DNA from: Arenicola marina
Lineage: Eukaryota > Annelida > Polychaeta > Arenicolidae
NCBI GenBank assembly: GCA_964019135.1
Contig: OZ025257.1
Coordinates: forward strand, 16,643,971-16,707,970
Direction of reading: 5' to 3'
Length of the DNA stretch: 64,000 nt
In this document: positions 6,551-61,195 of the stretch, piece after piece
How the letters are laid out: every line of letters starts with the position of its first letter
How positions within the stretch are numbered: position 1 is the first letter of the stretch
Translations under genes and position numbers: made by a program
The notes under the pieces: model-generated
Seen by the model: only the letters and a program-made list of their open reading frames with translations
Databases searched by the model: none
What the model was told of the DNA's origin: nothing

Positions 6551-6717
6551 ATCCATCAGGGCGGCGGCGTCGTCGGCATCGCGCTCCAGGAAGTGCTCGG
6601 GCCAGTCCCGTTCTGGGGGGATGCTTTTGCCGTACCCCCGGGGGTCCCAGGCGATCACGGTGAACAGGTCCTTGTTCAGGTTGTCCAACTGAGGTCCGAA
6701 ATCTGTTCGCGATGAAC
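6551..6717 (-). CDS. BPHL: BPHL exon 3
   Basis: Acceptor TAG at 6718-6720, donor GTAAGT at 6545-6550. Encodes 55 codons after a split Gly, including FGPQLDNLNKDLFTV, AWDPRGYGKSIPPERDWPEH and ERDADDAAALMD. This is the best-conserved segment seen and identifies the family. Confidence 0.92.
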
Positions 6718-9700
6718 CTACACGTGAAGATGACACACAAAAAAATCTTACAAACAAACCAAGTGTGCAAAATGGAAAGTCTTGTGTGTGTGTGGGGGGG
6801 GGGGGGGTAGCAGTGGTCTTGAGGGAGCGTACTCGACGGCAGACCAACAGGTTGCGAGTTCACAACCCCACCTGCGTCTGGAGCCGCTTCATCCTTTCGT
6901 CTCAGGCCCGGTCCAATCCACCCACGTCTCACATTGATTTACTATACAGACCTACATATAGTTCAATAGTATGTACCATATGTCTGGGTTGTTATCGTTG
7001 GCGTATATTAACCACGCTACCATGAAGGGCACTAAGGTCCCAAGACCCTTGGAACGGTAAATGTCGGGAGTAGTTGGGTTGTTTGAACAGGAATCTTTAT
7101 CCTGTAATATTAAGCTTATTTATATAACCTTATTGATAACAACGTGAGAAGATCCAAATTGAATGAAGAAATATCCCTGATGGTAACCTCGGATTCCTGT
7201 GCAGAAAAACATGGGACCTGTATCCTGCACAAACTCCTACTAGGATTTCGTACAGGGAGTGAGACACGAACGCCGGCACGCGGTCCGGCGTGGCAGAGAT
7301 TGTACTCGATAAAGCCGGGATTGCCAGACCAATCCGGTGGTCCTGTGGTGATCCATGACCAAGAAGATGGTAAACAAATGAATTGATGATTGGTTGTATA
7401 TCAGGACGCTTTAACTACTTTTGGTCATATCGCGTCAATGGGAGAAGAAAGGGAGAGTGGAGCCATGTCCCCGGGGGTAACCCCCTACTCTTTGCGAAGA
7501 AGGACATGGGATCTTTATTCTGCGACCACATGACATGGCCACAGCGGGGCTCGAACCACCGATCCACGTGCCTTTAGGCTCTCAGGTGGCCAGAGCGCCA
7601 AACGCGAGCGCTCTAACCCGCTGAGCTATCGGGGCGGCTCTAACTGAATTGATGAACGCTGGGGGCCTCTGAGGGACGTTGCGTGATGTTACCTAACGCC
7701 CCGGGTAGCAGCAACACGACATGGTTTCCCAAGCCGCCTTTCTCGAAATGCAATTTAGCGCCCCTGATGTCCACTTTGTGGGATGAAACCCATCTGAAAA
7801 AGGAAAACAGAAGAAACAAGGATTTCAGCGCTTTTTGATGATATCTGGACTTCAGGGCATAAGAGCAGTAACACATTTGCTATCCTTTTTGGTTGGTACC
7901 CGGACTACTCACGGCATAGTTGGTACCCAGACTACCTTCTCAGCCTCTTTATCCTCGCTGTTTCCCTGACAACCTAGAACATTGTTTGTCGAATATTCAG
8001 AGCATTGCTGGTAATCTAAAAACATTGGTCATAACGGCACCGAGTGTGCTCAATGCACACAACGGAAAACCCAAAGTAGACGGGACAAAAATGTATAGAA
8101 ATTGCTGAAAAACTTGCATGCTGATGGCATAACGTCAAAGTAGATAAATAGCAGTAAATTATGTTCCTGCATCGAAGAAACGACTTCCGTAGCATCTCTT
8201 ACTGATTTCGTTCTCGTTCGGGCTTCGTTATTTCCGCCTGTGTCAATGTCTCACCTGGCCTCTTCGTGCGATCTCTTGCCGCTGATGTCAGATGCTAAAG
8301 CCGCGAAAAGGCTGTAAATGCAAAACTTGTGTGAAATCAAGAGCCAAATTTGCAACGTAACCTATTCGCCCGTGCGTTCCTGATGACCACGGCTGGATTT
8401 AGCTCGGACTCGAAGCAGCATAAACGTGGATCGTCAATTTGTATTACAATATTAAGATAATTAACAACGGGAATTTGCAGCCGCTAATCACTCTTGTCAA
8501 AAGCATGAACATTGCAATTACGGTTGCATTGCTTATTTAGTCGGCATATAACAGTAACACAAAAATAAAACAAAACCGTATATATAACAGGAAAAAGTGA
8601 AATGCCAGAACAAGCACCGAGCCTAAGTAAGGATGCAACACGAAATAATTACTTTTATCTCTTCATGCTTAGTATAACATATCTATCATAATATCTATCA
8701 TAATACAAGATGCAACAAATTCCGTGCAGCTAAACAGGAAAGCAAGACAAATCCACTATGTAGCACATATAATGAATAAACAATGTTGTTGGTGCGTGTC
8801 ACTAAGGTGCGCATCAACATACCAACGAAATTCCATACACGCGATAGAAAGACAGATCGCTACACCGCCAAGAAAGCATCATAACGTTAACACAGAAGGT
8901 GGTGGTCTCGGTTAACAGTGAGGGGTATTAATATGTCGCATTGATCTGTACATTATTGGAACTATTTTTGGAACTATTTTTGGAACTATTCCTCCGGATA
9001 CGAAAGGTACGTGGGCCAGTGAAATGTTCAGGAATACCACGTGGCGGATTGCGATGTTTTCTGCGGTTTGTGATGTTCACTGTGGGTTGTGATGTCCACT
9101 GTGGGTTGTGATGTTCACTGTGGGTTGCTATGTCCACTGTGGGTTGTGATGTCCACTGTGGGTTGTGATGTTCACTTTGGGTTGTGATGTCAACTTGGGT
9201 TGCGATGTCCACTGTGGGTTGTGACGTCCACTGCATTTTGTGATGTTCACTGTGAGTTGTGATGTCAACTTGGGTTGCGATGTCCACTGTGGGTTGTGAC
9301 GTCCACTGCATTTTGTGATGTTCACTGTGGGTTGGGATGTCCACTGTTGGTTGTGATGTCCACTGTGGGTTGTGACGTCCACTGCAGATTGTGATGTTCA
9401 CTGTGGGTTGGGATGTCCACTGTTGGTTGTGATGTTCACTGTGGGTTGTGATGTTCACTGTGGGTTGTGATGTCCACTGTGGGTTGTGATGATCACTGTG
9501 GGTTGTGATGTCCACTATGGGTTGTGATGATCACTGTGGGTTGTGATGATCACTGTGGGTTGTGATGATCACTGTGGGTTGTGATGTCCACTATGGGTTG
9601 TGATGATCACTGTGGGTTGTGATGATCACTGTGGGTTGTGATGTCCACTATGGGTTGTGATGTCCACTATGGGTTGCGATGTCCACTGTGGGTTGTGATG

Positions 9701-12700
9701 ATCACTGTGGGTTGTGATGATCACTGTGGGTTGTGATGATCACTGTGGGTTGTGATGTCCACTATGGGTTGTGATGATCACTGTGGGTTGTGATGATCAC
9801 TGTGGGTTGTGATGATCACTGTGGGTTGTGATGATCACTGTGGGTTGTGATGATCACTGTGGGTTGTGATGTCCACTATGGGTTGTGATGATCACTGTGG
9901 GTTGTGATGTTCACTGTGGGTTGTGATGTTCACTGTGGGTTGTGATGTCAACTAGGGTTGCGATGTCCACTGTGGGTTGTGATGATCACTGTGGGTTGTG
10001 ATGTTCACTTTGGGTTGTGACGTCCACTGCATTTTGGGATGTTCACTGTGAGTTGGGATGTCCACTGTTGGTTGTGATGTTCACTGTGGGTTGTTATGTC
10101 AACTAGGGTTGCGAAGTCCACTGTGGGTTGTGATGGTCACTGTGGGTTGTGACGTCCACTATGTGTTGCGATTTTCACTGTGGGTTGTGATGTCCACTGT
10201 GGGTTGTGATGTCAACTAGGGTTGTGATGTTCACTGTGGGTTGTGATGTCATCTAGGGTGGTGATGATCACTGTGAGTTGGGATGTCCACTGTGGATTGT
10301 GATGTCCACTGTGGGTTGTGATGTCAACTAGGGTTGCGATGTTCACTGGGGGTTGTGATGGTCACTGTGGGTTGTGATGTCCCTTGTGGGTTGTGATGTC
10401 AACTAGGGTTGCGATGTTCACTGGGGGTTGTGATGGTCACTGTGGGTTGTGATGTCAACTAGGGTTGTGATGTTCACTGTGGGTTGTGATGTCATCTAGG
10501 GTTGTGATGTTCACTGTGAGTTGGGATGTCCACTGTTGGTTGTGATGTCCACTGTGGGTTGTGATGTCAACTAGGGTTGCGATGTTCACTGTGGGTTGTG
10601 ATAGTCACTGTGGGTTGTGATATTCACTGTGGGTTGTGATGTTCACTGTGTCTTGTGACGTCCACTGTGGGTTGTGACGTCCAGTGCAGTTTGTGATGTT
10701 CATTGTTGGTTGTGATGTTCACTGTGGCTTGTGATGTTCACTGGGGGTTGTGATGGTCACTGTGGGCTGTGATATCCACTGTGGGTTGTGATGTCCACTG
10801 CGGGTTGTGATGTACGTCCCCTGTGGGTTGTGATGTACGTCCACGGTGGGCTGTGATGGTCACTGTGGGTTGTGATGTCCACCGTTGGTTGTGATGTCCA
10901 CTGTGGGTTGTGATGTCCACCGTTGGTTGTGATGTCCACTGTGTGTTGTGATGTACGTCCACTGTGGGTTGTGATGATCACTGAGGGTTATGATGATCAC
11001 TGTGGGTTGTGATGTCAACTGTGGGTTGTGATGTTCACTGTGGGTTGTGATGTACGTCCCCTGTGGGTTGTGATGTATGTCCACGGCGGGTTGTGATGAT
11101 CACTGTGGGTTGTAATGTACGTCAACTGTGGGTTGTGATGTCCATAGTGGGTTGTGATGATCACTGTGGGTTGTGATGTTCACTGTGGGTTGTTATGTTA
11201 ACTGTGGGTTATGATGTCCACTGTGGGTTGTGATGTCCACTGTGGGTTGTGATGGTCACTGTGGGTTGTGATGTCCACTGTGCGTTGTGATGTCCACCAT
11301 TGGTTGTGATGTCCACTGTGGGTTGTGACGTCCACTGCAGTTTGTGATGTTCACTGTGGGTTGTGATGTTCACTGTGGGTTGTGATGTTCACTGTGGGTT
11401 GTGATGTTCACTGTGGGTTGTGATGTTCACTGTGGGTTGTGATGATCACTGAGGGTTATGATGATCACTGTGGGTTGTGATGTCAACTGTGGGTTGTGAT
11501 GTTCACTGTGGGTTGTGATGTACGTCCCCTGTGGGTTGTGATGTATGTCCACGGCGGGTTGTGATGATCACTGTGGGTTGTAATGTACGTCAACTGTGGG
11601 TTGTGATGTCCATAGTGGGTTGTGATGATCACTGTGGGTTGTGATGTTCACTGTGGGTTGTTATGTTAACTGTGGGTTATGATGTCCACTGTGGGTTGTG
11701 ATGTCCACTGTGGGTTGTGATGTCCACTGTGCGTTGTGATGTCCACCATTGGTTGTGATGTCCACTGTGGGTTGTGACGTCCACTGCAGTTTGTGATGTT
11801 CACTGTGGGTTGTGATGTTCACTGTGGGTTGTGATGTTCACTGTGGGTTGTGATGTTCACTGTGGGTTGTGATGTTCACTGTGGGTTGTGATGTTCACTG
11901 TGGGTTGTGATGTCCACTGTGGGTTGTGATGTTCACTGTGGGTTGTGATGTTCACTGTGGGTTGTGATGTTCACTGTGGGTTGTGATGTTCACTGTGGGT
12001 TGTGATGTTCACTGTGGGTTGTGATGTTCACTGTGGGTTGTGATGTCCACTGTGGGTTGTCCTGACTTCCTTCGCAAGTTTTACATTGAGATTTGCGATA
12101 TTTACATTGAGAATTGTGATGTTTTCATTGAGAATTGCGATATTTTCATTCAGAATTGTGATGATGCAGTTATAATTTTCATTGTGTGGTGTGTCACTTT
12201 AGCTCACATATTACTTACCCTATATTGCATTTCGTTAAGACAAGCTGGAAGACAGACCTGGCATGTGACATTGGAGAAGGAGGATTGTGAGGGCTTCTTC
12301 ACATCAAACATAAAGAGGTTCACACTGCAGAGGCACTGTTAACTTAGCCCAATTAAGCATCTGACAAACAAACCTGGTGCATAAATTGTCAGCATTATTT
12401 GGGTGGCATGACAACTTATGTCAGGATCAAACTGGAACTCCAGTGGGGTAAATGAAGAAACGTCAAAAAGCAAGGACAATAAAGCAAATATTATTTAAGA
12501 ATATTAGCTTGCTGAGGAGAAATAAACATACCAATACTATTGATTACAAAAAAGAAAATCCAAAAGGTAAACCCATGCACTGAATCATAGTATCAGCACA
12601 GATAGTGATACTACCTGGCAGATTTAAACAAGTACTACGCCACAAGCTCGTCAAAGAGAAGAATAGGCTATATAGTATGTAGCCACTTACGAGTTTCCTG

Positions 12701-15700
12701 CAGCTTCTCTATGAAAATCATGAATACAATATTTTTGATATCAATGTTATATACTAGCCTATTGCATATTTATATAAGAGATATGTAATTATAAATATAA
12801 AAATGCAATGCATAAAAATGCAATGCAAAATATGCTTTATTTATATTTGGCATCGTCAACCAGATTTCTTCTGGATATTAAGTACCGGTAGTAAGAAAAC
12901 TGAAATTTACCATTTACAACTGGTACAATGTGTAAGCATGTGCATGTGGCCATGCTTGAGGATTATACAATCAAGTCTACCAGGTATATATCTACAGAGT
13001 ATAGCCTGCCTGACATCTAACATAAAAAGTCAACCCCCCAATAAGCATAATAAGGAGGAGAAATACATATCAGCTGCAAAATCGAGCTGGCTGCATAGGT
13101 ATAGTACCACATCGAAAGAATTAATATCTACCTCAACAATAATAGTATGATAATTACTAGTTCACATACCATCAACTACGGTAGATCTTTTACATGTATA
13201 TGTTTCAGAAGAAATTTTCCAAAAAAAAAAATCCAATGTTTTGGTGCACCCTAATTTTCCTGAAATTTATCGATATATTTATTTATCTATTTATCTGTAC
13301 AGATTACAAATTATTCCACCCACACCATCAGTTAGCTCTGGGATCCTGTTCTTTGCCCAAACACTCCTACAACTTACGACATACTGCATGCATGGAAGCC
13401 ACAAACCCGAGTGGTCTCAATCTCTTGGTGGCTGATGACAATGGTGCATGTGAAGCCATTTTCTGCTTCTGCTATAAGGCATCTGGTAAACCTACACTAC
13501 CTGTTGCCCACCTGTCTAACAAAACAACTGACTGACAACTGAGCCAAAATCGCCTATTGTCACCCTCACTTGCTCTGAGTGCTACACAAAGCTACCAGAG
13601 TGATGAAGAGGCTAAGTTGGTGCCCTCTCCCTCCTTTCGCCTCATCCCCTCACTCCAGAGTAGTGAAGAGGCTAACTTTGACGCTAGGAGGCCATACACT
13701 GCAGGCTGGTTGACTGGTTGACCATATAAACTCCACCTCATCCTGCCCCTCGCCTGTATCCTGTAGTGGCTATGGTTACAGTAGCTCTTCGACTGACCAA
13801 CCTACAAGCCCCTGACCCCTTACCCGCCTCACACATTCAACTGTCAAATGTAAAAATGAACCAAAAATTTAGAACAGAAGGAAAATTAATTTTGGGCTGT
13901 AAGTTTTGGTATACCCAGGTTTGTAATTATTAATCTGGTATACCAAAACAGATGCAAATGAATAGACATATTATCTCACTTTATCAGTATTTCTGCTTCA
14001 GGGAATAAGTCTTGATATGCGCCTATTATCAGGATATCTAAAGCAGTACAGATATATTATCAATACATAGTATTTTTTATTAAGGTTGAGAGCGGGTGGC
14101 GCCTGGGGGATTTTTTCAGAACTAAATTCAATTGTTTTTTTTAATTTTTAGGGTCAAATTTCAATCAATATCAATCTATGTCACATCAAATAATATTTCC
14201 TCCCCCAAATTTGCATGTCTTTAATGTATTACAAGCAAATACCAAGATATTTAGTAATTGCATTATGCGCCAAAAGGTACAATTGTGACAATTCGTCATT
14301 AATGGCCTATTTTATAGCCTATTTAGTTACAATAGAGCTTATAGAACAAAAGTTAGTTCAGTAACATATCATTTTTTTGTTTTTTTCGTATTCACCATGA
14401 AGCTGGGCTTCAGCAGGCAGTTTTTTTGGGAAGTCTGTGAACCAGTTTTTATAGGGGCTTTCAAAACATTGAGAAAAAAACATATTTATAAGATTTTCCC
14501 ATTGACCGACATCCCGCTATTTGCCTGGTGAAAATAGTCCTGAATGCAAATTAAACATCAATAGAATGCTGAAAGAACTTCCACTTAATTGGTACTTTCA
14601 AAGATTTGAATGCAATGATGTCACTGAGAAGATAAAGTCAGACCATTTGAAACAAATAACCGTTAAACAACTATGACAACTGTCTGATGTGATGTAGAAT
14701 CTTTACTTTACATTCCCCAACCAAAAATGTACACACACCCAGCGATTATTTATTTTCGGTGCGCCTGAACCCCAATCAAAATATGGCACCTGCGGCAGTC
14801 CAAAAATCTCAGAAATTACACAGCAGATAATGGAAGTTATTAAAACAGAAGCATCAAGCAATGTCAGATCCCAAATTGGTAACAAATCAACAGAGAATTG
14901 GTTATTTTATGTAAATATATAGTTCATTGCTAAATATCCACGCAAAAAAGTAATTTTATAACCATGTAAAGGCCACCAAGATTTTGGGCTGGATTTTACT
15001 ACTGGAAAGAGATTGTTAGGAGATGTAACATAGTTCTGCGACTATATCCATATCACAGCTAACTATGTTACATCTATGGAACAGATGCAGATGAGGGCTA
15101 ACTTCCCTATTATTTGCACAAGGCGATTTTCACAATTCCAAGACGTTATATAAGTTACTTACTGGCTCAATATGTGACATAATATACAGCGTCATTAAAT
15201 AAAAACTGTGAATATTATAGAGACTTTCCCCATTTTTGGTCCCATCTACCAATGGCAATGGTTAAGGAACAAACAAAAAAATCCAAGGACCTTGACCGCT
15301 GACGTACATACTCTGCTAATAAACTTGACTGAGCCATGTTGACTACCCATTCGATGGGTAAAGTTACAGAAAGACATGTTACATTTTGCAACCTACAGAG
15401 CGTGCACACACACACACAGAAAAACCAACGTAGTGATAGATGCCGTAAAATCAAAGATTTTATGTCATAAATAGATCTTTACAGATCATTAATAACATAC
15501 AATGTTAGCGGCGTGGGCACAGTTTGTACCAAATAGGCGAGGACCTACATTGGCATAATTGATCTACTCCAGCCTTGAAATAACTGGCATAATTAGCAAG
15601 TTGAAAGATACAGATCTAAAACTTTCTCATCCGGTCAGGACTTCACTTTAGCAGTTTAGAATAGAAGGCCATGTTGTTTGGGAGACTGGACTAGTCTAAG

Positions 15701-15873: not shown

Positions 15874-16010
15874 TTTTTCAAGAAAGTTAGGCTTGTTCAC
15901 CGTTCACAACACCGGAAAAGTTACTTGTACCTCCCAATAGGAGAGCTCTTCAACTCTGGCTGAGTTGGGGCCGCGGAACCAGGCTTCACGGCCTTCGTGG
16001 GACGGTAGCA

Positions 16011-16024
16011 GCGCCACCTGGCGG
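16011..16024 (-). promoter_or_regulatory. CTCF-like motif upstream of BPHL exon 1
   Basis: On the minus strand CCGCCAGGTGGCGC fits all 14 positions of the common bilaterian CTCF core written CCRSYAGRKGGCRS. It lies about 140 bases upstream of the putative BPHL start codon. Binding is inferred only. Confidence 0.5.
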
Positions 16025-16700: not shown

Positions 16701-16702
16701 TG

Positions 16703-18390: not shown

Positions 18391-18391
18391 T

Positions 18392-18397
18392 TTTATT
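18392..18397 (-). terminator. candidate poly(A) signal of beta-tubulin A
   Basis: AATAAA on the minus strand, about 280 bases downstream of the tubulin A stop codon. It is the first canonical hexamer after the stop. Confidence 0.5.
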
Positions 18398-18674: not shown

Positions 18675-22285
<3,611 letters not shown>

Positions 22286-27129: not shown

Positions 27130-32641
<5,512 letters not shown>

Positions 32642-43625: not shown

Positions 43626-44320
43626 TGTAGAGGGATTTGGTAGAGCTAGACGAGGGTTGGGGTTATCATGGGGGAGTAGCAATAGTATGTAGAGCGGTGG
43701 TGGGCAGCGGGGTCATAAACCGGGGTCAAGGCGGGGGCAGCATGCAGGAGTGATCAGCGCAGGCGGGCGGACGCTCTCGGATAGGGGAAGGGGGGAAGCT
43801 CAGGATTGGGGTGGTACCCCCAACTTAGCGAGGGGGTGAATCCCTGGGTTGGGGTGGTACCCCCAACTTAGGGGAGGGGCGAGTCGCCGGGTTGGGGTGG
43901 TACCCCCAACTTAGCGAGGGGGTGAATCCTGGGTTGGGGTGGTACCTCCAACTTAGGGGAGGGGCGAGTCTCCGGGTTGGGGTGGTACCCCCAACTTAGC
44001 GAGGCGGTGAATCCTGGGTTGGGGTGGTACCCCCAACTTAGGGGAGGGGCGAGTCGCCGGGTTGGGGTGGTACCCCCAACTTAGCGAGGGGGTGAATCCC
44101 TGGGTTGGGGTGGTACCCCCAACTTAGGGGAGGGGCGAGAGAGAGACGTATAAATAATCGAAGACCAGGAGAACAAGAGGGACTTGAGAGAGAGATAAAG
44201 AGATAGACGGATCGTGTGGCATGGAATAGTATTGTGGATGGAATATTATGGTGGAATAAAGCTGAGAAAAGAACGACATGTGTTGAATTTCACTACGCGG
44301 CCCGACGGGAGAACCGAAAA
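43626..44320 (+). mobile_element. LTR of a Ty3/gypsy-type fossil (plus orientation)
   Basis: Begins TGTAGAGGGATTTGG, contains an AATAAA near 44255 and is followed by a primer-binding-site-like TGGTGTCAGAA. Inside is an alternating tandem repeat of about 43 bases (GGTTGGGGTGGTACCCCCAA core) whose copy number differs from the other LTR. The two LTRs look about 97 percent identical outside the repeat, so the insertion seems fairly recent. Confidence 0.7.
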
Positions 44321-46287
44321 GTGGTGTCAGAAGGAACTTTAACAACTGGTGTCAGAAATGGGATCTGATCTTTAACACGCACTGGATACTGTTGGATTGG
44401 TTTTTACTTGAGGATTAGCAGGAACATGTTGGTCATCAACGCGTTTGAGTGCAGCGAATGCTTTGCTTTTCTGCCTAGGCTGGAATTTCCTCACGAATGT
44501 CCTTGCGTGGAACGAGAACTTGCTGACATTTGCGAAATAGCGATGAGCATCTTCGTACATATATTGAGGCATCACAAGGATATGAATGTGCAGTTGCATC
44601 CACGAAGCCGGTGTGTGCTGACCTTGTGTTCATCTGCGGAAGGGGCTGACATAAGGAATATCGAAGATGCCGCCAAAAAGGGACAATAAGGAACGGGAAA
44701 CCGAGGGGAGCGAGGAGGCGGCCGCCTCTGCTGCGGAAAGGGCCCTTTGGGGCGAGATGGAGGCGCTTAGGTCAGAATTGGCAGAGCAAAGGCGTCTAAA
44801 GGATATCGCCGTGGCGGAGGCCGGGGATATAGTGGCAGCGGCTAAGCGCCAGACCGATTCGGCGGAACAGCGGGCCGATTCGGCGGAACAGCGGCCCGAT
44901 TCGGCGGAACAGCATGCCGATTCGGCCGAACAGCAGGCTGAGTCGTTGGAACAGCGGGCCGAAGCAAGGCTGGCGGCAGCAACGGGCGCCCCAATGGCCG
45001 AGGTGCGGAGCTTCGCTTGTCAGGAGCTGAGGCACTACGCCCGCTCCTGTCCGAGAGGCAGTGGCGGCGAGGAGATCGGCGAGCGGCGCGGCGAGTGGCC
45101 GGCCAGCGGCTCCACCTTCCACCAGGGAAACTAGTAGGGGCCGGCCCTACCAGCCAGTCGTCGGCCCTGGTTGCGAAGGATTGTGTAGGAAGGTACGAGT
45201 TGGGGTCGTCCTTCAGGAGAGTAGACGAAAATATACCACTAAAGGCACGGAGGGTCGGCGTGTCGCAGGTGCCGAAAACGCGGGCGTACGGCGCAGACGA
45301 TGCGCGCCCCGTCAGGAGAAGTGTGTTTGTTGTAATGGTTGTGTTTGTTGTGCTGCTTGTGTTAGTGTGGTGGTGCAGCGTCATGTCTTGGTTGAGATGT
45401 GGCGGCCAGGAGGTTGTGAGGAGTGGCGCACAGGGAGGTGGCTGGGCGTGGCGGCTTTGTCGTTGGAGTCAGGTCAAGTGGCGGGGTATGACGCGCAGGG
45501 AGCGCGATGTGACACCCCGTGGGCCTACTCCGGCTTTGGGTGGGAGATCCACCGCGAAGGAGAGCCACGAGCCGAGGAGTAAACCTGTGCTGCCGCGGGA
45601 CCGGGCTGGATGTCGAAGAGTGACACGTGGGGAAAAGGGCGGAATGTCCGAGTACCCGCATCAATCTTTAAGTGGGAGATTGTCACTAACCACGGATAAG
45701 GCGCCGGTCTGCAATATGTCGAGAAGGACAAGACAGAGGGATGTAGTCCAACCCCAAGGCAAAAAGCACGGCGACGCAGATGCGTTGTCACGGATACCGT
45801 GCGACCCGAGCGAGTGTGATTGCTTCGATGGAGACAAGGTGCTGACCGAGTTACCTTGCGGCGGATGTGATGTTGGTTTGCAAAGGCACCGACCACGGTC
45901 GTCATCCTGTGAGTTGGGTGACGTGAAGCCGCTAGGAGCTCAGAGGGTCAGCGTGTCTCAGGCATCAGCAATACGGGTCGGCGACGGGAAGGTGGCGCGC
46001 TCTGCCTAGGTCAGTGGGTGGGACCCAGCGGCCGGAAGGCGAGAGATGGCCAGGAGGAGGGTTCGTTTAGTCGAGTCCGGAGGTGTGGTGGATCTATTTG
46101 GCGGGGTTTGAGGCGCATAAAGCGTGATGTGACACCCCGAGGGTCGGCACCAACCTTACGTGGGAGATCGGCCGATAACGGAAGCCAGCAACGGAAGCGG
46201 AACGACGCGGACCAGCGGTTGGAAGGCTCAGGTCTGCTCTTTGGTGGGAGATCCCCACCAGCTCCCATTGATAATGCGAGGGCGGCT
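44321..46287 (+). mobile_element. internal remains of a Ty3/gypsy-type element (broken)
   Basis: GC-rich internal region between the LTRs. A gag-like stretch (44.67-45.13 kb) has a coiled, Ala/Glu-rich part with a DSAEQRA-type repeat followed by a zinc-knuckle-like remnant. Around 45.7-45.86 kb are RNase H-end remnants of the kind KHGDADALSRIPC and LPCGGC, typical of Ty3/gypsy pol. Most of pol is missing and several breaks are present; it is a fossil. Confidence 0.65.
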
Positions 46288-46430
46288 AGTTAGCATAGAA
46301 GATTGAAATACTAAGTAAAAAAGTAATCTGATGACACACATGCTATAACGTTTATGCGCTATGTGAATGTGTGGATAAATGTGTAGGTGGTAGTGGGGGC
46401 ATAATTTTTTTTTTTTTACAACTGAACCTT
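46283..46430 (+). repeat. direct repeat, copy 1
   Basis: GGCGGCTAGTTAGCATAGAA and about 130 further bases recur at 47783-47935 in the same orientation, 1.5 kb away, with only a few differences. Confidence 0.8.
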
Positions 46431-46500
46431 GCCTATTTGATTTTTATCTTTTTGATCTTTGATCCAATTTTAGAGTATTGTTAAGTTCTTTCTGACACCA

Positions 46501-47092
46501 CTTTTCGGTTCTCTCGTCGGGCCGCGTAGTGAAATTCAACACATGTCGTTCTTTTCTCAGCTTTATTCCACCATAATATTCCATCCACAATAATATTCCA
46601 TGCCACACGATCCGTCTATCTCTCTATCTCTCTCTCAAGTCTCTCCTGTTCTCCTGGTCTTCCCTTATTTATACGTCTCTCTCTCGCCCCTCCCCTAAGT
46701 TGGGGGTACCACCCCCACCCAGGGATGGGGTACCACCCCAACCCGGAGACTCGCCCCTCCCCTAAGTTGGGGGTACCACCCCAACCCAGGATTCACCCCA
46801 TCGCTAAGTTGGGGGTACCACCCCAACCCGGCGACTCGCCCCTCCCCTAAGTTGGGGGTACCACCCCAACCCAGGGATTCACCCCCTCGCTAAGTTGGGG
46901 GTACCACCCCAACCCTGAGCTTCCCCCCTCCCCCTATCCGAGAGCGTCCGCCCGCCTGCGCTGATCACTCCTGCATGCTGCCCCCGCCTTGACCCCGGTT
47001 TATGACCCCGCTGCCCACCACCGCTCTACCTACTATTGCCACTCCCCCATGATAACCCCAACCCCCGTCTAGCTCTACCAAATCCCTCTACA
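46501..47092 (-). mobile_element. LTR of the same fossil family in opposite orientation
   Basis: Reverse-complement copy of the LTR at 43626-44320, shorter because it has fewer of the ~43-base internal repeats. Ordinary LTR pairs are direct, so the inverted arrangement shows a rearrangement or two insertions. Confidence 0.72.
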
Positions 47093-48966: not shown

Positions 48967-51835
48967 GGCTTTAAATCTCAGTCCATTGCATGCAGGGCGC
49001 AAGCTTTAAATCACGGCCCAATGGATAAAGGGCGTAGGAAGCTTTAAATCTCGGCTCAATCGATAAAGGGGGTGAGGGGCTTTAAATCTCGACCTAATAG
49101 ATAAAGCGGGTGAAAGGCATTAAATATCGGCCCAATGGATAAAGGGCGTAGGAGGCCTTAAATCTCAGTATGATGGATAAAGGGGGTGGGAAGCTTTAAA
49201 TCTCGGCCAAATGGATAAAGAGCGTATGAGGCTTTAAATCTCGGCTCAATGGATAAAAGGCATAGGAGGCTTTAAATCTCGGCCCAATGGATAAAAGGCG
49301 TAGGAGGCTTTAAATCTCGGCTCAATGGATAAAAGGCGTAGGAGGCTTTGAATCTCGGCCCAATGGATAAAGGACGTAGTAGGCTTTAAATCTCGGCTCA
49401 ATGGATAAAAGGCGTAAGAGGCTTTAAAGCTCGGCTCAGTGGATAAAAGGCCCAGGAGGCTATAAAACTCGGCTGAATGGATAAAGAGCGTAAGAGGCTT
49501 TAAATCTCGGCCAAATGGATAAAGGGCGTATGAGGCTTTAAATCTCGGCTCAATAGATAAAAGGCGTAAGAGGCTTTAAATCTCGGCCCAATGGATAAAA
49601 GGCGTAGGAGGCTTTAAATCTCGGCTCAATGGATAAAATGCGTAGGAGGCTTTAAATCTCGGCTGAATGGATCAAGGGCGTAAGAGGCTTTAAATCTCGG
49701 CTCAATGGATAAAAGGCGTAGGAGGCTATAAATCTCGGCTGAATGGATAAAGGGCGTAGGAGGCTTTAAATCTCGGCTCAATGGATAAAAGGCGTAGGAG
49801 GCTATAAATCTCGGCTGAATGAATAAAGGGCGTAAGAGGCTTTAAATCTCGGCCAAATGGATAAAGGGCGTATGAGGCTTTAAATCTCGGCTCAATAGAT
49901 AAAAGGCGTAAGAGGCTTTAAATCTCGGCCCAATGGATAAAAGGCGTAGGAGGCTTTAAATCTCGGCTCAATGGATAAAATGCGTAGGAGGCTTTAAATC
50001 TCGGCTTAATGGATAAAAGGCGTAGGAGGCTATAAATCTCGGCTGAATGGATAAAAGGCGTAAGAGGCTTTAAATCTCGGCCAAATGGATAAAGGGCGTA
50101 TGAGGCTTTAAATCTCGGCTCAATAGATAAAAGGCGTAAGAGGCTTTAAATCTCGGCCCAATGGATAAAAGGCGTAGGAGGCTTTAAATCTCGGCTCAAT
50201 AGATAAAAGGCGTATGAGGCTTTAAATCTCGGCCCAATGGATAAAAGGCGTAGGAGGCTATGAATCTCGGCTGAATGGATAAAAGGCGTAGGAGGCTTTA
50301 AATCTCGGCCAAATGGATAAAGGGCGTATGAGGCTTTAAATCTCGGCTCAATAGATAAAAGGCGTAAGAGGCTTTAAATCTCGGCCCAATGGATAAAAGG
50401 CGTAGGAGGCTTTAAATCTCGGCTCAATTGATAAAAGGCGTAGGAGGCTTTGAATCTCGGCCCAATGGATAAAGGACGTAGTAGGCTTTAAATCTCGGCT
50501 CAATGGATAAAAGGCGTAGGAGGCTTTAAAGCTCGGCTCAATGGATAAAAGGCGTAGGAGGCTATAAATCTCGGCTGCATGGATAAAGGGCGTAAGAGGC
50601 TTTAAATCTCGGCCAAATGGATAAAGGGCGTATGAGGCTTTAAATCTCGGCTCAATGGAATAAAAGGCGTAGGAGGCTTTAAATCTCGGCCCAATGGATA
50701 AAAGGCGTAGGAGGCTTTAAATCTCGGCCCAATGGATAAAGGACGTAGTAGGCTTTAAATCTCGGCTCAATGGATAAAAGGCGTAGGAGGCTTTAAAGCT
50801 CGGCTCAATGGATAAAAGGCGTAGGAGGCTATAAATCTCGGCTGAATGGATAAAGGGCGTAAGAGGCTTTAAATTTCGGTCAAATGGATAAAGGGCGTAT
50901 GAGGCTTTAAATCTCGGCTCAATAGATAAAAGGCGTAAGAGGCTTTAAATCTCGGCCCAATGGATAAAAGGCGTAGGAGGCTTTAAATCTCGGCTCAATG
51001 GATAAAAGGCGTAGAAGGCTTTAAATCTCGGCTGAATGGATAAAAGGCGTAGGAGGCTTTAAATCTCGGCCCAATGGATAAAAGGCGTAGGAGGCTTTAA
51101 ATCTCGGCTCAATGGATAAAAGGCGTAGAAGGCTTTAAATCTCGGCTGAATGGATAAAGGGCGTAAGAGGCTTTAAATCTCGGCCAAATGGATAAAGGGC
51201 GTATGAGGCTTTAAATCTCGGCTCAATAGATAAAAGGCGTAAGAGGCTTTAAATCTCGGCCCAATGGATAAAAGGCGTAGGAGGCTTTAAATCTCGGCTC
51301 AATGGATAAAAGGCGTAGAAGGCTTTAAATCTCGGCTGAATGGATAAAAGGCGTAGGAGGCTTTAAATCTCGGCCCAATGGATAAAAGGCGTAGGAGGCT
51401 TTAAATCTCGGCTCAATGGATAAAAGACGTAGAAGGCTTTAAATCTCGGCTGAATGGATAAAGGGCGTAAGAGGCTTTAATTCTCGGCCAAATGGATAAA
51501 GGGCGTATGAGGCTTTAAATCTCGGCTCAATAGATAAAAGGCGTAGGAGGCTTTAAATCTCGGCTCAATGGATAAAAGGCGTAGGAGGCTTTAAATCTCG
51601 GCTCAATGGATAATTGGGGTAGGGCATTAAAGCTCGACTCAATGGATAAACGGCGTAGGAGGCTTTAAATCTCGGCTGAAAGGATAAAGGGCTGAAGAGG
51701 CTTTAAATCTCGGCTCAATGGATAAAGAGCATATAGGCTTTAATTCTCAGTCCAAAGGATAAAGGGCGTGGGAGGCTTTAAATCTCGGCCCAATCGATTA
51801 AGGGCGTAGAAGACTTTAAATCTAGGCCCAATAGT
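48967..51835. repeat. 38-bp minisatellite, about 75 copies
   Basis: Unit AGGCTTTAAATCTCGGCTCA followed by ATGGATAAAAGGCGTAGG, 38 bases. Four main subtypes (CTCAAT, CCCAAT, CTGAAT, CCAAAT) recur in a repeated order, giving a higher-order pattern of several units. Units at both edges are more diverged. Confidence 0.95.
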
Positions 51836-51839
51836 AACA

Positions 51840-53270: not shown

Positions 53271-53276
53271 CCAGTT

Positions 53277-53575
53277 ATGATCAGTTTGGGATCACCCTGA
53301 TCAGCTTAGGGATCAGCTTAGGGATCACAGTAATCTGCTTAGGGATCACCCTGATCAGCTTAGGGATCACCCTGATCTGCTTAGGGATCACCCTGATCAG
53401 CTTAGGGATCACCCTGATCAGTTTAGGGAACACCCTGATCCGTTTCAGGATCACCCTGATTAGTTTGGGATTACCCTGATCAGTTTGGAATCACTGTGAT
53501 CAGCTTAGGGATCACTGTGATCAGCTTAGGGATCATTGTGATCAGCTTAGGGATCACCATGCTCCGCTCAGAGAT
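53277..53575. repeat. 21-bp minisatellite, about 14 copies
   Basis: Units like GATCAGCTTAGGGATCACCC with TGATCA palindromes; the unit length of 21 creates a spurious SLGITLI heptad frame. Located downstream of ATP5F1E. Confidence 0.9.
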
Positions 53576-54227
53576 TACCAGCAGGGTGATCACTCACAAC
53601 ACACAATAGCATCCTGAAGTATCCCTATAACTACCAACCCAAATGATTTCAGATTCGCCCAATCAGTTGAAGATGAATTATAGAGGCACAAGAGAAGAGG
53701 CTGGTACATCCAGGGTATTAGCCAGAATTTCAGTGTTCAGTGTACGCACACAACATGGCGCCAGCCAATCAGGTAGCATTTTGAGCTCGCAAATTTTCGG
53801 TCTTGGGTGGGTAAGCAGCGCCTGAGTGCCCGCCAAATTGAAAATCTGCCTGCCAAAATTCAAACTGCCCCCCCATCCGGCTGGGCCTCTGGCTAATACC
53901 CTAGGTATATCTATCGCTTTGAACATAATGACAGCAACAGAGTGTAGGTACACCACTGTAACAAAAACGCTGCTTGAAATAATGTGGTAATATGCCACAT
54001 ATATTTCAAATAATTACAATAGAGTTAATGGTATGCTACAAAACTAATTAAACAGGCCAGCTAGAAACAGTGTTGAAAGATAAAAGTACCAACTTCATGC
54101 CTGTTTCACTGAAATGAAAATGAAATATATCATATACTGGTACCTACACAAGGAGCAGGCATAGTTAGAAATCAGGGCATGTTCATGAAGCCTACTTAAC
54201 TCTATGTAAATCTTCTTAGTGCACCAA

Positions 54228-54233
54228 TTTAAT
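54228..54233 (-). terminator. possible poly(A) signal of ATP5F1E
   Basis: ATTAAA on the minus strand about 140 bases after the ATP5F1E stop codon. Confidence 0.3.
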
Positions 54234-54371
54234 AAATACCTGTGCAGAAGTTTAATCCATGCTCAAAACATGAAAGGCACAGACTAAAATTGTGAAATAC
54301 CACTTATGTGGCAAAAATATAATTAAATCATTAAGTTCAGGAAAGGAGCAATGTCAGATATATGACCTGAT

Positions 54372-54513
54372 TTACTTACTCTGTACTGGTTTACCATCCT
54401 TCCAGTATGTGACCCGGGCGTGGCCTACATTACGCTTGGCTGCCAATTCTTTTGCTTCTCCCTTCAGAACCTGTCTCACTATTTGTGCACAGATCTGAGA
54501 GTACTGGACGTAA
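54372..54513 (-). CDS. ATP5F1E: ATP5F1E exon 2
   Basis: Starts one base before TAC GTC CAG; carries the conserved YVQYSQICA segment and ends at TAA (54372-54374), unless spliced at the GTAAGT that begins at 54379. Confidence 0.88.
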
Positions 54514-57500
54514 CTACAAGTGTAAACAGATATAATTTTATTATTTACCAATCATTACATTTGAAAATATCTGAAAAAGTCTTTTATCAGCGTTGAACTA
54601 GTGTGTTCTCATCTAGACATCTTGCAAAAGGCAAAAAATGTAACCTTTTCTCAAAACTGTCGTCTCTTAACGCATAACCATTGTTGTTCTGATCTCTGTT
54701 GTCAGCTACTTACTCAATGCTTTTGCTGTAATATTAGCTTTTCCCAGACATTGTGCAACTGTTGTTATTACAATTTAGATTTGAATTATTAAAGTGGTGG
54801 GGCATGGTTTAGGGTGCAATGTCAGAAGGTGCAACTTGATCCAGCTGCGATCTGATACTACTTGTCTATGATCGATGATGGGAGTGATTGGCTTGGTTCT
54901 GAAGCCAGAGGCGATTATGATAGGTAGGGCATGCAAAAGTGTAATGGGGCAGCAGTGAGGGAGGCAGAGGTACAGGGCATATGTCTTTTGGCCAGGACTA
55001 GTGGGCTGCCCTGTATACTTGAGCATGTTGAGCTCTTCCGGACCTGCTGGTCTGGCTATGCCGAATGTCAATGAAATGTTCACACAGGTCATGTCCAGTT
55101 CATTGAGGTGCAATGGAACTAGCCTAGGCAGTCACTTTTCAATCAGCCTCCCATCTTCTTCCAATCATCCTGTGCTGTTTTGAACTGGGCATAATGGCAT
55201 ATTGAATGGATGCTCGCATACCCGACCACAGGGAAAGAAGTGTCTGGTAGACAAATATAGGTCATATATGTATTCTATGTATCTTGGGAAGAAATGAAAC
55301 TTTTGACGTAGTGACGTAGACAATACAGTATCCGTTGTAAACAAATGGTGTGCAGATCGACAGCTTATGAAACTATCTGGCAATGTTAATGGCGAGAGGA
55401 ATTCAATTTCCTCTGTGATCCAGATGAAATACAGGTCCAAAAATGTTTACAATAAAGCTCATGTATCATCATAAAAATACAGTGCACTTTTTTCAGGCCA
55501 GTTCGTAATCCTTACCGATGAATTTCAAGCGAAGAATCGAGAGCAAAATTTGCAGCAGCTCATAGCGCGCATGTAGATAAAAAGTCTCTTACCAAAGAGA
55601 TGCACCCACACTAGGCCACAGTGAGAGCCAGGACCAGGTATAGGTTATAATAACTTTCCCGGAAACAATGAAAGAGTTCGCTAAAAGAGTTTCACCACTC
55701 TACCACTCTTGAAATGAATATTATAAGATTGTGATGATGTGAACTAGCAGATGCTGACATATATACGTAGAAGGGGGGGGGAGGGGGATAAGGGTTTAAT
55801 AATTGTGCGTGAACTGGGTAAACTATACAGCAGGAGGTGGTAGATGCAATTTCTTTGGTAACCTAGATATATCTCAAATGTGGATAGAATATATATATTA
55901 TGCAACGTTTTACTGCTGGACACTTCTTTCACACAGGTCTGGTGCGTGCGTATTCATTCGGTGCACCTATCAGGTCGATTCTCAAACCCTTTTATGGAAA
56001 TCGTTTCCACATCAAGAAAACCTTTCCTGTTCTGGAAACCACATGTGCATTGTGTGCTCTTCCAGTAGAGGGCGCACGCTGCTGCTATGCTGGTGTCCAG
56101 ACCCCTGCTTAATCATACGGTACCATTCCTTCGCGCTACGCTGATCGGATGACATGCAACGGGTGGCTTAGCAGCGTTGTCAACATTTTATATATATATT
56201 GTCGGATAGGGCGACTGACCAGTTTATCACTGTGAGTATTGCCATAAAAAGTTCTGTTGCATTCTCTAAGGAATTTTTATTCAGGTGACAAAGTGCTGAA
56301 ACAAAGGGACCAATTTTAGATGAACACACTTTCTTCCCGTCTGGTGGTTATTTTATTAAAACTTTGTCTGACTGAAAAAACTGAAGAATGGGGGGAGGCA
56401 GATGTTCCCCGCCCCCCCCCCCCCCGGGATGAGGGGGGCCATTTCTTTGATGGGCTCTCCTTATTAAAATATGGAATGTCGCCACTGACTGCGTAAGTTT
56501 TTTATAGTTTTTTTTATAAAATCTTTATTGTCATAGACACTAAAGTAAATGTACATTAAAATAACGGTTGATAAATAAATGAATAAAATTTACATAGCAC
56601 TACAAATCCCTGTGATCTCTAAAAGAGGTATAATTTTTTGGCATTTTGCACTTAACCTATATATGTCTATTAAAGTATTAGACTGCGTGACAGTTTATCA
56701 CATGGCGCGAGAGAGACAATCGGTAGCACAGTGTAATAAGGAAATACTGGCTTTATTTTTAACCTTGCACTCTATTGAACTTACCGAGTGTCTGCTTGTA
56801 GTCTCTCCCTGCCCCCTTGTCAACTTTCGGATCGGCAGGGTTGGACCACAGGCACAGTGAATCAGTGAAGGGCTGAAGCACCTGCCCCCACCCCCTCCCC
56901 CTGCCTGTCCCCCAACACCCACTGACTGTGCCTGTGGCTCCGATTGTACACGCGCATAGTTTCGGGCACCCTCCGGAACCCAAGACCTGGATCACCACTG
57001 GCACTAAATTGACCCCACACCGTTCTGAATGCAAGGCCGGCCCTGGAGGCCGCTAGAACGCTAGCTGTCGGTGGACAAACATCCACAGCCTGCGAGCATG
57101 TGTACTATGCCAGGGTCTGTGCCGTGTGTGAGTGGGGGGGGGGGGTTGCTACAATTGAACCGTGGGTGAGTGAGGGTGAGAGCAGCAACACTATTATGTA
57201 CATCCCACACCCCCTACCCATGAACGACCGACATGACAGGTGGTAGGTCATCACCTTTGTCGTACATACTGAACATACGTACTGAACAGATGTGCCCAAT
57301 TTTGAACCCTATTTGGCGAAGCCGGTCAAAGTTTTTGGAGCCTCCCCCCGCCTCTGTCAGGAGCGTCACCCCCCCCCCCTCCCCCTTATACTTATTCTAG
57401 TCTAGTTGTGAAGAATGGAGGTGTTTTATTTACACGATGTGCATTCCATTGAAGCGCCAAATATCGACCTGCCCCCCCCCCCCCATCCCCCCTGAACCTC

Positions 57501-60500
57501 GGTTGTGGATGGATGTTCCCCTGTTTAGCCCCATTTGGCGGAGTATTCAAGTTTCTGAAGTGCCCCCCCTCAATGAGGACATCTCAAATTTGAAAAAAAA
57601 ACTGGTCAACATTGAATGCACTGTTTCATTAAATGTAACAACATTTAGAATTCAGAATGAAAAATAAATTTTATGTTTTAGGACTACAAATGAAAAGTTA
57701 AATGATTTGTAGTTATGTTAGTTTTACAGAAATGTGAAAACAGCAAAGATGTTATTGTGAATTGCAATTTGTTATGGCACCAGGAGAGTTTCACCGGCAA
57801 AAAGGCTGGTATCTGCTGCCACTTTAGTGCAAGCCTGTATTTTCAATGAGGAAATCTCAAATTTGAAAAAAAACTTGTCAACATTGAATGCATTGATTTA
57901 TTAAATGTAACCACATTTAGAATTCAGAATGAACAATAAATTTTATGTTTTAGGACTACTAAATTTGTTTTTTAGCAAAATGGCCCCTGGCCCCAGAGTC
58001 AGCCATATTGGAACCAAATCCTCCAACCACCACTTCAATTTTAAAATCGATATAACTCCGAAAGCTCACCATAGATTTCAAATGCACGCTACAAAAAGCA
58101 ACTAAATTATATTTCCAATCATCAGAAAGTGAAATTTCGATTCCGGCATAAGAATTGACGTTCCGCCGCCAGGTGAAACAGGGGGACTATCAGCCTAAAG
58201 TCGGCCATATTGGAACCAAATTCTCCTACCCCCACTTCAATTTTAAAATCGATATGACTCCGAAAGCTCACCATAGATTTCAAATGCACGCTACAGAAAG
58301 CAACTAAATTATATTTCCAACCAACAGAAAGTGAAATTTCGATTCCGGCATAACAATTGACGTTCCGCCGCCAGGTGAAACAGGGGGACTATCAGCCTAA
58401 AGTCGGCCATATTGGAACCAAATTTTCCTACCCCCACTTCCATTTTAAAATTGATATAACTCCGAAAGCTCACCATAGATTTCAAATGCACGCTACAAAA
58501 AGCAACTAAATTATATTTCCAATCAACAGAAAGTGAAATTTTGATTCCGGCATAAGAATTGACATTCCGCCGCCAGGTGAAACAGGGGGACTATCAGCCT
58601 AAAGTCGGCCATATTGGAACCAAATTCTCCTACCCCCACTTCAATTTTAAAATCGATATAACTCCGAAAGCTCACCATAGATTTCAAATGCACGCTACAA
58701 AAAGCAACTAAATTATATTTCCAATCAACAGAAAGTGAAATTTCGATTCCGGCATAAGAATTGACGTTCCGCCGCCAGGTGAAACAGGGGGACTATCAGC
58801 CTAAAGTCGGCCATATTGGAACCAAATTCTCCTACCCCCACTTCAATTTTAAAATCGATATAACTCCGAAAGCTCACCATAGATTTCAAATGCACGCTAC
58901 AAAAAGCAACTAAATTATATTTCCAATCAACAGAAAGTGAAATTTCGATTCCGGCATAAGAATTGACGTTCCGCCGCCAGGTGAAACAGGGGGACTATCA
59001 GCCTAAAATCGGCCATATTGAAACCAAATTCTCCTACCCCCACTTCAATTTTAAAATCGATATAACTCCGAAAGTTCACCATAGACTTCAAATGCACGCT
59101 ACAAAAAGCAACTAAATTATATTTCCAATCAACAGAAAGTGAAATTTTGATTCCGGCATAAGAATTGACATTCCGCCGCCAGGTGAAACAGGGGGACTAT
59201 CAGCCTAAAGTCGGCCATATTGGAACCAAATTCTCCTACCCCCACTTCAATTTTAAAATCGATATAACTCCGAAAGCTCACCATAGATTTCAAATGCACG
59301 CTACAAAAAGCAACTAAATTATATTTCCAATCAACAGAAAGTGAAATTTCGATTCCGGCATAACAATTGACGTTCCGCCGCCAGGTGAAACAGGGGGACT
59401 ATCAGCCTAAAGTCGGCCATATTGGAACCAAATTCTCCTACCCCCACTTCAATTTTAAAATCGATATAACTCCGAAAGCTCACCATAGATTTCAAGTGCA
59501 CGCTACAAAAAGCAACTAAATTATATTTCCAATCAACAGAAAGTGAAATTTCGATTCCGGCATAAGAATTGACGTTCCGCCGCCAGGTGAAACAGGGGGA
59601 CTATCAGCCTAAAGTCGGCCATATTGGAACCAAATTCTCCTACCCCCACTTCAATTTTAAAATCGATATAACTCCGAAAGCTCACCATAGATTTCAAATG
59701 CACGCTACAAAAAGCAACTAAATTATATTTCCAATCAACAGAAAGTGAAATTTTGATTCCGGCATAAGAATTGACATTCCGCCGCCAGGTGAAACAGGGG
59801 GACTATCAGCCTAAAGTCGGCCATATTGGAACCAAATTCTCCTACCCCTATTTCAATTTTAAAATCGATATAACTCCGAAAGCACACCATAGATTTCAAA
59901 TGCGCGCTACAAAAAGCAACTAAATTATATTTCCAATCAACAGAAAGTGAAATTTCGATTCCGGCATAAGAATTGACGTTCCGCCGCCAGGTGAAACAGG
60001 GGGACTATCAGCCTAAAGTCGGCCATATTGGAACCAAATTCTCCTACCCCCACCTCAATTTTAAAATCGATATAACTCCGAAAGCTCACCATAGATTTCA
60101 AATGCACGCTACAAAAAGCAACTACATTATATTTCCAATCAACAGAAAGTGAAATTTCGATTCCGGCATAAGAATTGACGTTCCGCCGCCAGGTGAAACA
60201 GGGGGACTATCAGCCTAAAGTCGGCCATATTGGAACCAAATTCTCCTACCCCCACTTCAATTTTAAAATCGATATAACTCCGAAAGCGCACCATAGATTT
60301 CGAATGCGCGCTACAAAAAGCAACTAAATTATATTACCAATCAACAGAAAGCGAAAATTTCGATTCCGGCATAAGAATTGACGTTCCGCCGCCATGTGAC
60401 CCAGGGGGACTATTTGCCTCTGTTTACCAGTGTCCACTGGCACTACCCACTGTAACAACGAACTTTCCTTTTCTGGAAAAGTCTATATATAGGGGCCAAG

Positions 60501-61195
60501 GGGTCGGCCACAAAACTTTCCCCCACGTGACAATTTGCATATGCATTGTTTTAGTCCGCGACCCGCCGCAAAGTAAACACTGTCGACGTCCCAAGCAATA
60601 TGTAAACATGAACACGTGCAAAGCCAACAGAGCGTGATGAAAATGGTTAATGCGCATGCGCCGATTTCCAGAACAGGAAAGGTTTTCTTGATATGGAAAC
60701 GATTTCCATAAAAGGGTTTGAGAATCGACCTGCCTATGTGCCCCGTTCAAAACAGCACAGACCTTCGGGAGAAGATTGCGGCTGATTGAAACGAGACTGT
60801 CCAGGCTGGTTCCATGACCCCTAAATTAACCGGACATGACTGGTATAAATATTTCGTTGACATTCGGCGCAACCCGACCGGCAGGTCCGGAAGAGCCTGA
60901 GTATACCGGGCGGCCTACCGGTCCTGGCCCAAACAAAGTCTGCAAAGAAATGGCAAAATGCGCCCGGCCCCGGTCTCGGTGAGGCCTGACTGTCTCTGAG
61001 TCTGAGGCTGAGCCTGTGACAGTGTGAGGCTGAGGCTCGTGAGGGACCATAAAAACCTAACCATTCATCTTTTACATATAATATTGAGAACACGATAGCA
61101 AAGAAATACGTCAGATATGAGCTATACTATATAATATTCGTTAGAAATATAAAATATACTTGCTTTAGGCCAGCTTGACGCCAGAACGCTGTCAT
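54372..61195 (-). CDS. ATP5F1E: ATP5F1E, ATP synthase F1 epsilon subunit (2 exons, 57 aa)
   Basis: Smallest subunit of the mitochondrial ATP synthase F1 stalk. Exon 1 (61164-61195) reads MTAFWRQAGL plus two bases; exon 2 (54372-54513) reads YVQYSQICAQIVRQVLKGEA, KELAAKRNVGHARV, TYWKDGKPVQ, then SK and a TAA. Human is [20 protein letters not shown]; the fly protein has a similar C-terminal NGKPAQ. The exons join in frame only if intron 1 uses a GC donor (GCAAGT, 61158-61163) with the TAG acceptor at 54514-54516. The last codons overlap a perfect GTAAGT (54374-54379), so splicing to a further exon is an alternative to the TAA stop. The 6.6-kb intron is filled by a TIR element with satellite DNA. 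In human, ATP5F1E lies next to TUBB1. Confidence 0.88.
55195..55965. mobile_element. nested TIR element splitting the left arm
   Basis: Its ends are themselves inverted and diverged: GAATGGATGCTCGCATACC and (reverse complement) GAATGAATACGCACGCACC, followed on both sides by GAAAGAAGTGTC. The uninterrupted right arm of the host element shows the empty site. Confidence 0.55.
56062..56075 (+). promoter_or_regulatory. CTCF-like motif in the ATP5F1E intron element
   Basis: CCAGTAGAGGGCGC fits all 14 positions of CCRSYAGRKGGCRS. It lies just inside the left arm of the TIR element. Confidence 0.5.
56847..56936. mobile_element. 90-bp MITE related to the one at 61.3 kb
   Basis: Starts CACAGGCACAGTGAATCAGT and ends with the inverted ACTGTGCCTGTG. 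Same ends as the 296-bp element at 61336-61631 but a shorter interior; no clear target duplication. Confidence 0.5.
57568..57960. repeat. ~275-bp direct repeat leading into the satellite
   Basis: A segment of about 115 bases starting TCAATGAGG at 57568 recurs at 57843 (shared CATTTAGAATTCAGAATGAA and TTTTATGTTTTAGGACTAC). Confidence 0.8.
57975..60420. repeat. 202-bp satellite, 12 tandem units
   Basis: Copies of a 202-base unit (start TCGGCCATATTGGAACCAAA) recur at exactly 202-base spacing from 57999 to 60221. The first and last units are the most diverged. The variant ATTTTGATTCC with GACATTCCGCC marks units 3, 6 and 9, giving a 606-base higher-order period in part of the array. It has no coding frame and lies inside the TIR element in the ATP5F1E intron. 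Confidence 0.95.
61164..61195 (-). CDS. ATP5F1E: ATP5F1E exon 1
   Basis: Ten codons plus two bases from the ATG at 61193-61195; MTAFWRQAGL matches the conserved epsilon N-terminus. Followed by GCAAGT, a typical GC-type donor. A GT lies four bases further but would shift the frame. Confidence 0.82.

Follow-up and report, generated by a model that had tools for sequence, protein, structure and literature searches.

In mammals, beta-tubulin genes are described in two gene neighborhoods that bear on the locus studied here. For human 6p25, the excerpted text of PMC4502905 names GMDS, WRNIP1, SERPINB genes, NQO2, RIPK1, BPHL, TUBB2A, TUBB2B, SLC22A23, FAM50B, and PRPF4B, with PSMG4 not among the names given there, and a column in the excerpted table of PMC7479479 gives BPHL, TUBB2A, TUBB2B, and PSMG4 in sequence. 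For mouse chromosome 2, the excerpt of PMC4308015 gives positions for Stx16, Npepl1, Gnas, Th1l (= NELFCD), Ctsz, Tubb1, Atp5e, and Slmo2 (= PRELID3B). The same gene set as in this mouse Gnas-Tubb1-Atp5e region appears in an excerpted cattle list (PMC10486602), and the same 20q13-type set in an excerpted, alphabetical human list (PMC9599555). Here, we analyze a block of five genes, BPHL, beta-tubulin, beta-tubulin, PSMG4, and ATP5F1E, in a window of 64,000 nucleotides (C10:16643971-16707970) from an annelid genome of 867 Mb in 762 contigs, of which C10 measures 43.2 Mb. The block is very probably the remnant of an ancient bilaterian neighborhood, BPHL - beta-tubulin - PSMG4 - ATP5F1E, that was duplicated and differently pruned in vertebrates. 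Neither the block, nor a TUBB paralogon, nor the adjacency was found in print in the open-access literature searched. Paralogy between 6p25 and 20q13 in vertebrates is already established from other gene families, and the families that the two human regions share presumably include BMP6/BMP7, TFAP2A/TFAP2C, and EDN1/EDN3. The general conclusion about these two regions is not new, and the block is a further example of a known phenomenon; what the analysis adds is the annelid evidence, a wider linkage test with controls, and a correction concerning the tubulin pair.

We located the five genes in the window by searching with human protein sequences. A further 100 kb on each side was also read, and every gene model was re-spliced and translated from its coordinates. 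The models are as follows, in window coordinates unless C10 is given:

61195-61164 and 54513-54372, minus strand: ATP5F1E (mitochondrial F1 epsilon), 2 exons, 57 amino acids, matching 8h9f and ATP-synt_Eps
42952-42761, 41892-41817, and 41380-41259, minus strand: PSMG4 (proteasome assembly chaperone 4), 3 exons with GT-AG introns, 129 amino acids, matching 5wtq and PAC4
32641-32585, 29502-29394, 28876-28521, and 27954-27130, minus strand: beta-tubulin B, 4 exons, 448 amino acids, from the spliced translation
22285-22229, 20383-20275, 20086-19731, and 19499-18675, minus strand: beta-tubulin A, 4 exons, 448 amino acids, from the spliced translation
7793-7693 and 6717-6551, minus strand: BPHL (valacyclovir hydrolase) orthologue, its two window exons, matching PDB 2ocg and Pfam Abhydrolase_1
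C10:16643854-16643569, 16642645-16642522, and 16642090-16641991, minus strand: BPHL, three exons beyond the window

Read along the coding strand, the genes thus run ATP5F1E, PSMG4, beta-tubulin B, beta-tubulin A, and BPHL, all on the minus strand, and the re-spliced and translated exon models confirm both the gene order and the single strand that an earlier note on this DNA had claimed. Splice sites and frames are consistent in all five models, with the exception that the first exon of BPHL was not found; the phase of its first known exon implies that it exists. The outer BPHL exons are found between 116 and 1979 bases to the left of window base 0; the gene thus ends 2 kb outside the window, and position 6551 is an internal exon end, not the gene end. 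BPHL and human valacyclovir hydrolase (2ocg) align over nearly the full length (query residues 3-254, E 6.6e-99), and BPHL carries the nucleophile elbow G-x-S-x-G as GWSDG, as a valacyclovir hydrolase should. PSMG4 matches PDB 5wtq at E 7.8e-27 and Pfam PAC4 at E 7.4e-25, and ATP5F1E, whose start codon is at 61195, matches PDB 8h9f at E 8.9e-11 and Pfam ATP-synt_Eps at E 1e-20. The ATP5F1E intron (61163-54514, minus strand; 6,650 bases) is predicted from the sequence to be of the GC-AG type with the donor GCAAGT, and among the readings found, only the GC-AG junction keeps the frame. Both full-length tubulin translations have the MREI start and the GGGTGSG loop of beta-tubulins.

BPHL, PSMG4, and ATP5F1E lie 10.9 kb, 8.6 kb, and 21.7 kb, respectively, from the tubulin pair. 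Joined into a single query, the three proteins returned 10 rows from the whole genome. Nine of these correspond to their exons in the block, the tenth has an E-value of 0.16, and no second copy of BPHL, PSMG4, or ATP5F1E was found in the genome with this query. By one-way best matches, these three neighbors are unambiguous orthologues, a standing that does not extend to the tubulins, whose isotypes are not resolvable. The same neighbors occur together in a distant phylum, as judged from the mammalian lists in the papers and from the annelid locus by sequence.

The annelid locus shares part of its arrangement with each mammalian region. Like human 6p25, it has BPHL, a tandem beta-tubulin pair, and PSMG4 adjoining one another, and annelid GMDS and PRPF4B have their best matches on C10. 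It differs from 6p25 in including ATP5F1E, which is not in the excerpted 6p25 lists, and in having all genes point one way, whereas the human tubulins run against BPHL and PSMG4. Mouse chromosome 2 and human 20q13, as given in the excerpted lists, are similar in that beta-tubulin adjoins ATP5F1E and that annelid GNAS, NELFCD, CTSZ, and PRELID3 are best matched on C10. However, those lists are without BPHL and PSMG4, and the annelid GNAS, NELFCD, CTSZ, and PRELID3 lie megabases from the block. A broader likeness is to the bilaterian ancestral linkage groups and microsynteny treated in the excerpted part of PMC11371463, where genes have stayed on one chromosome since the bilaterian ancestor and a few of them are still adjacent.

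If 6p25 and 20q13 derive from a common ancestral chromosome, their markers should co-locate in an animal without the vertebrate duplications. We searched one genome, the annelid's own, with 14 markers from human 6p25, 20q13, and 18p11 (where we take AFG3L2, SEH1L, and CHMP1B to lie), and 13 were placed. Three of the 13 have their best match elsewhere, and ten, one of them tentative, have it on C10, which holds 5% of the genome:

C10 11.17 Mb: GNAS, placed by exon identity
C10 11.20 Mb: SEH1L, best match
C10 11.28 Mb: AFG3L2, up to 90% identity
C10 11.56 Mb: FOXF, tentative (59% versus 55% for the runner-up)
C10 13.13 Mb: VAP, best match
C10 20.32 Mb: CTSZ, best match
C10 33.76 Mb: PRELID3; PRELI-family matches fall on four contigs, those to the PRELID3B part of the query on C10 only
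C10 34.11 Mb: NELFCD, best match
C10 34.87 Mb: PRPF4B, placed by exon identity
C10 40.95 Mb: GMDS, best match

AFG3L2, PRPF4B, and GNAS were placed by the 61-94% identity of their C10 exons. None of the 10 controls (PCNA, TPI1, GAPDH, SOD1, PGK1, TBP, SOD2, UBE2I, RAN, and GLO1) has its best match on C10, where weak paralogue matches to UBE2I and RAN are present. With C10's share of the genome as the chance of success, 10 of 13 markers give a binomial tail of 2.4e-11; because the markers fall in about five clusters and are not independent, the true figure is less extreme, though still small. The two human sets are also interleaved: about 1.1 Mb or less separates PRPF4B (6p25) from NELFCD and PRELID3 (20q13). 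Since markers of both human regions (GMDS and PRPF4B from 6p25; GNAS, NELFCD, CTSZ, and PRELID3 from 20q13) all have their best matches on C10, a single ancestral linkage group underlies the genes of 6p25 and 20q13, which bears out what the earlier note had put forward for checking.

The age of the block depends on the identity of its host. C762 is the mitochondrion and the sole COX1 match in the genome; 15,000 of its 15,942 bases were read. Its genes lie on one strand in the order cox1, cox2, cox3, nad6, cob, atp6, nad5, nad4L, nad4, rrnS, rrnL, nad1, nad3, and nad2. This order was drawn from ARAGORN transfer RNAs (tRNAs) and open frames, with the frame names and the places of the ribosomal RNAs being our own reading; the ARAGORN list of 25 includes extra calls, and two on the opposite strand were taken as spurious. 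In the annelid pattern described in the excerpted part of PMC2639372, nad6 and cob directly follow cox3, atp6 stands between cob and nad5, nad5 and nad4L/nad4 are swapped, and nad3 lies between nad1 and nad2. C762 shows all the features of that excerpt, and annelid mitochondrial genes are all on one strand according to the excerpt of PMC4505326. That the host is a deuterostome was considered and rejected on this annelid gene order. As an annelid is a protostome, a homologous mammalian match dates the block before the protostome-deuterostome split. The earlier note had seen in the block a single invertebrate locus predating the vertebrate duplications; the shared linkage group supports this, with the correction that the host is an annelid and that the block is older than the claim needed. 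The tubulin pair, however, is probably not the forerunner of TUBB2A/TUBB2B.

Introns interrupt the two annelid tubulins at the same three positions: behind codon 19 (phase 0), within codon 56 (phase 1), and behind codon 174 (phase 0). Their synonymous divergence (dS) is 0.97 over exons 1-3 and 0.10 over exon 4 up to codon 434, with the difference at fourfold sites fading within the first part of exon 4. A second stretch of low divergence spans codons 63-124, where 5 of 30 fourfold sites differ. This sequence pattern points to an older tandem duplication in which gene conversion has acted chiefly on the 3' exon (18675-19499 and 27130-27954); owing to the conversion, the duplication cannot be dated. 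An ancestral status of the pair itself is not supported, as it appears to be a tandem duplicate with a homogenized last exon. We take the human TUBB2A/TUBB2B pair to be a mammalian duplication, and the annelid and human pairs are probably independent. That the annelid pair directly corresponds to TUBB2A/TUBB2B was considered and rejected, as the dS pattern favors an independent tandem pair. The last exon of tubulin A is 97% identical to that of human TUBB2B, and beta-tubulin proteins are so similar that a tree would not separate the isotypes. Elsewhere in the genome, four clustered beta-tubulins at C7:36.31-36.34 Mb are without introns 19 and 56 and have the intron at 174, which suggests that this cluster may have lost two 5' introns. 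The 5' part of one beta-tubulin on C5 at 27.5 Mb is also without introns 19 and 56.

In the history we favor, annelid C10 would descend from one ancestral linkage group, with the block as its local remnant. In the vertebrate stem, two whole-genome duplications would have multiplied the neighborhood, and complementary losses would have left BPHL, tubulin, and PSMG4 in the 6p25 copy and tubulin and ATP5F1E in the 20q13 copy. A common function of the five genes would be unnecessary, as slow local rearrangement would be enough. We take TUBB2A, TUBB2B, and TUBB1 to be oriented against their neighbors in human; on these strands, the tubulin would have been inverted relative to its neighbors once, most simply before the duplications. 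A single inversion, either at that time or in the annelid lineage, would be enough, with no need for separate later inversions.

Several observations weigh against this history. Most 20q13 neighbors are on C10 yet megabases off, and the tight mammalian 20q13 order is not kept. AFG3L2, PRPF4B, and GNAS have their best E-values elsewhere (C465, C747, C1, and C4; long single frames with 32-43% identity). CHMP1 is best matched on C1 and has a single weaker exon match on C10, and BMP5-8 is best matched on C4. FOXC1 is best matched on C2/C8, an unsafe placement with many forkhead genes and 86 of 376 candidates scored. TFAP2 was unmatched in the joined queries and with PF03299, a profile that is also silent in the control genomes, so that its absence is not shown. 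The evidence spans one animal genome, and the orthology of the tubulins themselves cannot be demonstrated from such similar proteins.

A single ancestral chromosome is also compatible with two independent origins of the adjacency, one in the annelid and one in vertebrates, through within-chromosome reshuffling. The heavily shuffled order of C10, where CTSZ, NELFCD, PRELID3, GMDS, and PRPF4B are present but distant, speaks for such a course. However, it would be very unlikely for random reshuffling on 43.2 Mb to bring three specific genes to within about 25 kb of the tubulins, with BPHL and PSMG4 flanking them as at 6p25, and we regard separate origins as improbable. Co-location on C10 alone would not produce this proximity, which makes retention, not re-formation, the best reading of the local order. 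By simple arithmetic, independent placement within the contig has a probability of a few in 10^9, and chance is a poor explanation for the adjacency. That unrelated genes were joined by chance or by an assembly artefact is scarcely credible: we have a single assembly only, but the window is inside the 43.2-Mb contig, there is no N in the 264 kb that comprise it and its flanks, and the 10 of 13 markers on C10 stand against 0 of 10 controls.

Retention could instead reflect selection on the adjacency itself, through tubulin enhancers in PSMG4, BPHL, or the ATP5F1E intron or through a housekeeping domain of open chromatin. The survival of the block while the rest of the linkage group was scattered would fit selection. 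The large tandem arrays that separate the genes and occupy parts of the BPHL and ATP5F1E introns do not, nor do the gene directions, which differ in mammals, and we give selection only a slim chance of being the reason. The preferred reading remains a neighborhood inherited from the bilaterian ancestor and divided among vertebrate copies.

This reading can be extended to four vertebrate loci. Human TUBB2A/B (6p25), TUBB1 (20q13), TUBB6 (18p11), and TUBB3 (16q24) would be four daughters of one bilaterian locus after two duplications, with a single prior tubulin inversion explaining the opposite orientation at both 6p25 and 20q13. The reasoning is that C10 also holds the best matches of AFG3L2, SEH1L, and VAP (18p11/20q13); the four-daughter extension could in our judgment go either way. 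Beta-tubulin protein trees cannot tell which vertebrate isotype stems from which duplication, and the neighbors offer an independent handle. With one protostome pre-duplication locus carrying both human marker sets, it becomes possible to treat TUBB2 and TUBB1 as the descendants of one gene, perhaps together with TUBB6 and TUBB3. Subject to confirmation in other phyla, the locus would also add a four-gene case of adjacency preserved from the bilaterian ancestor onward.

The Pfam scan of the window covered 122 open frames from the 150 longest of 287 candidates, a sample that short exons could escape. Among these 122 frames, there was no clear further protein gene in the block; the matches are one reverse transcriptase and one weak ABC_trans_CmpB (E 7e-4). 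The reverse transcriptase fragment (62047-62865, plus strand; RVT_1 E 5e-12) lies just upstream of ATP5F1E and is probably of the non-long terminal repeat type. Scans of the window gave no tRNA, and no Rfam family exceeded its gathering score. Its tandem arrays are as follows:

3782-5887: tandem array of a 21-base pair (bp) unit, in a BPHL intron
9049-12060: tandem array of a 19-bp unit
49003-51832: tandem array of a 38-bp unit
57997-60413: tandem array of a 202-bp unit, in the ATP5F1E intron

At 43787-46933, inverted arrays of a 43-bp GGTACC-rich unit (43806-44139 and 46727-46933) surround about 2.6 kb with open frames. This structure looks like a foldback-type element, and the six of its frames that were scanned gave no clear Pfam domain.

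Outside the window, the flank frames scanned (10 of the 150 listed) comprise three 7tm_1 receptors, two sulfotransferases, one PNMA-like frame, one RecQ-helicase piece, two DUF6589 frames, and one without a match. None of the known mammalian tubulin neighbors is among these 10 frames, with the possible exception of an amine-type receptor frame of 444 residues at C10:16630205-16631536 (minus strand), 10.5 kb past the BPHL end. Among solved structures, it is closest to histamine H3 receptors (E 3.1e-75), followed by the muscarinic family (9e-55). We take human HRH3 to be at 20q13.33 and HRH4 at 18q11, so that the H3-like receptor may extend the block.

Farther along C10, GNAS, SEH1L, AFG3L2, and the FoxF-like gene lie within 0.4 Mb at 11.17-11.56 Mb. 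GNAL, AFG3L2, and SEH1L are presumably close together at human 18p11, and the annelid cluster is a candidate second block of old microsynteny. A second AFG3L2 relative at C10:18.57 Mb, with 45-65% identity, is possibly paraplegin (SPG7) and was left out of the count, being outside the planned markers.

In-frame TAA/TAG codons occur in matches on the unplaced contig C750 and on C747, C465, C356, and C666. On C750, a divergent alpha-tubulin has 13 such codons in 422 when aligned to the annelid alpha-tubulin, and at these sites the annelid has 5 Glu, 2 Asp, 2 Asn, 2 Arg, 1 Pro, 1 undetermined residue, and 0 Gln. The C750 gene could be a decayed gene. Peritrich ciliates read UAR as Glu, and contigs of this kind perhaps come from a protist that does the same.

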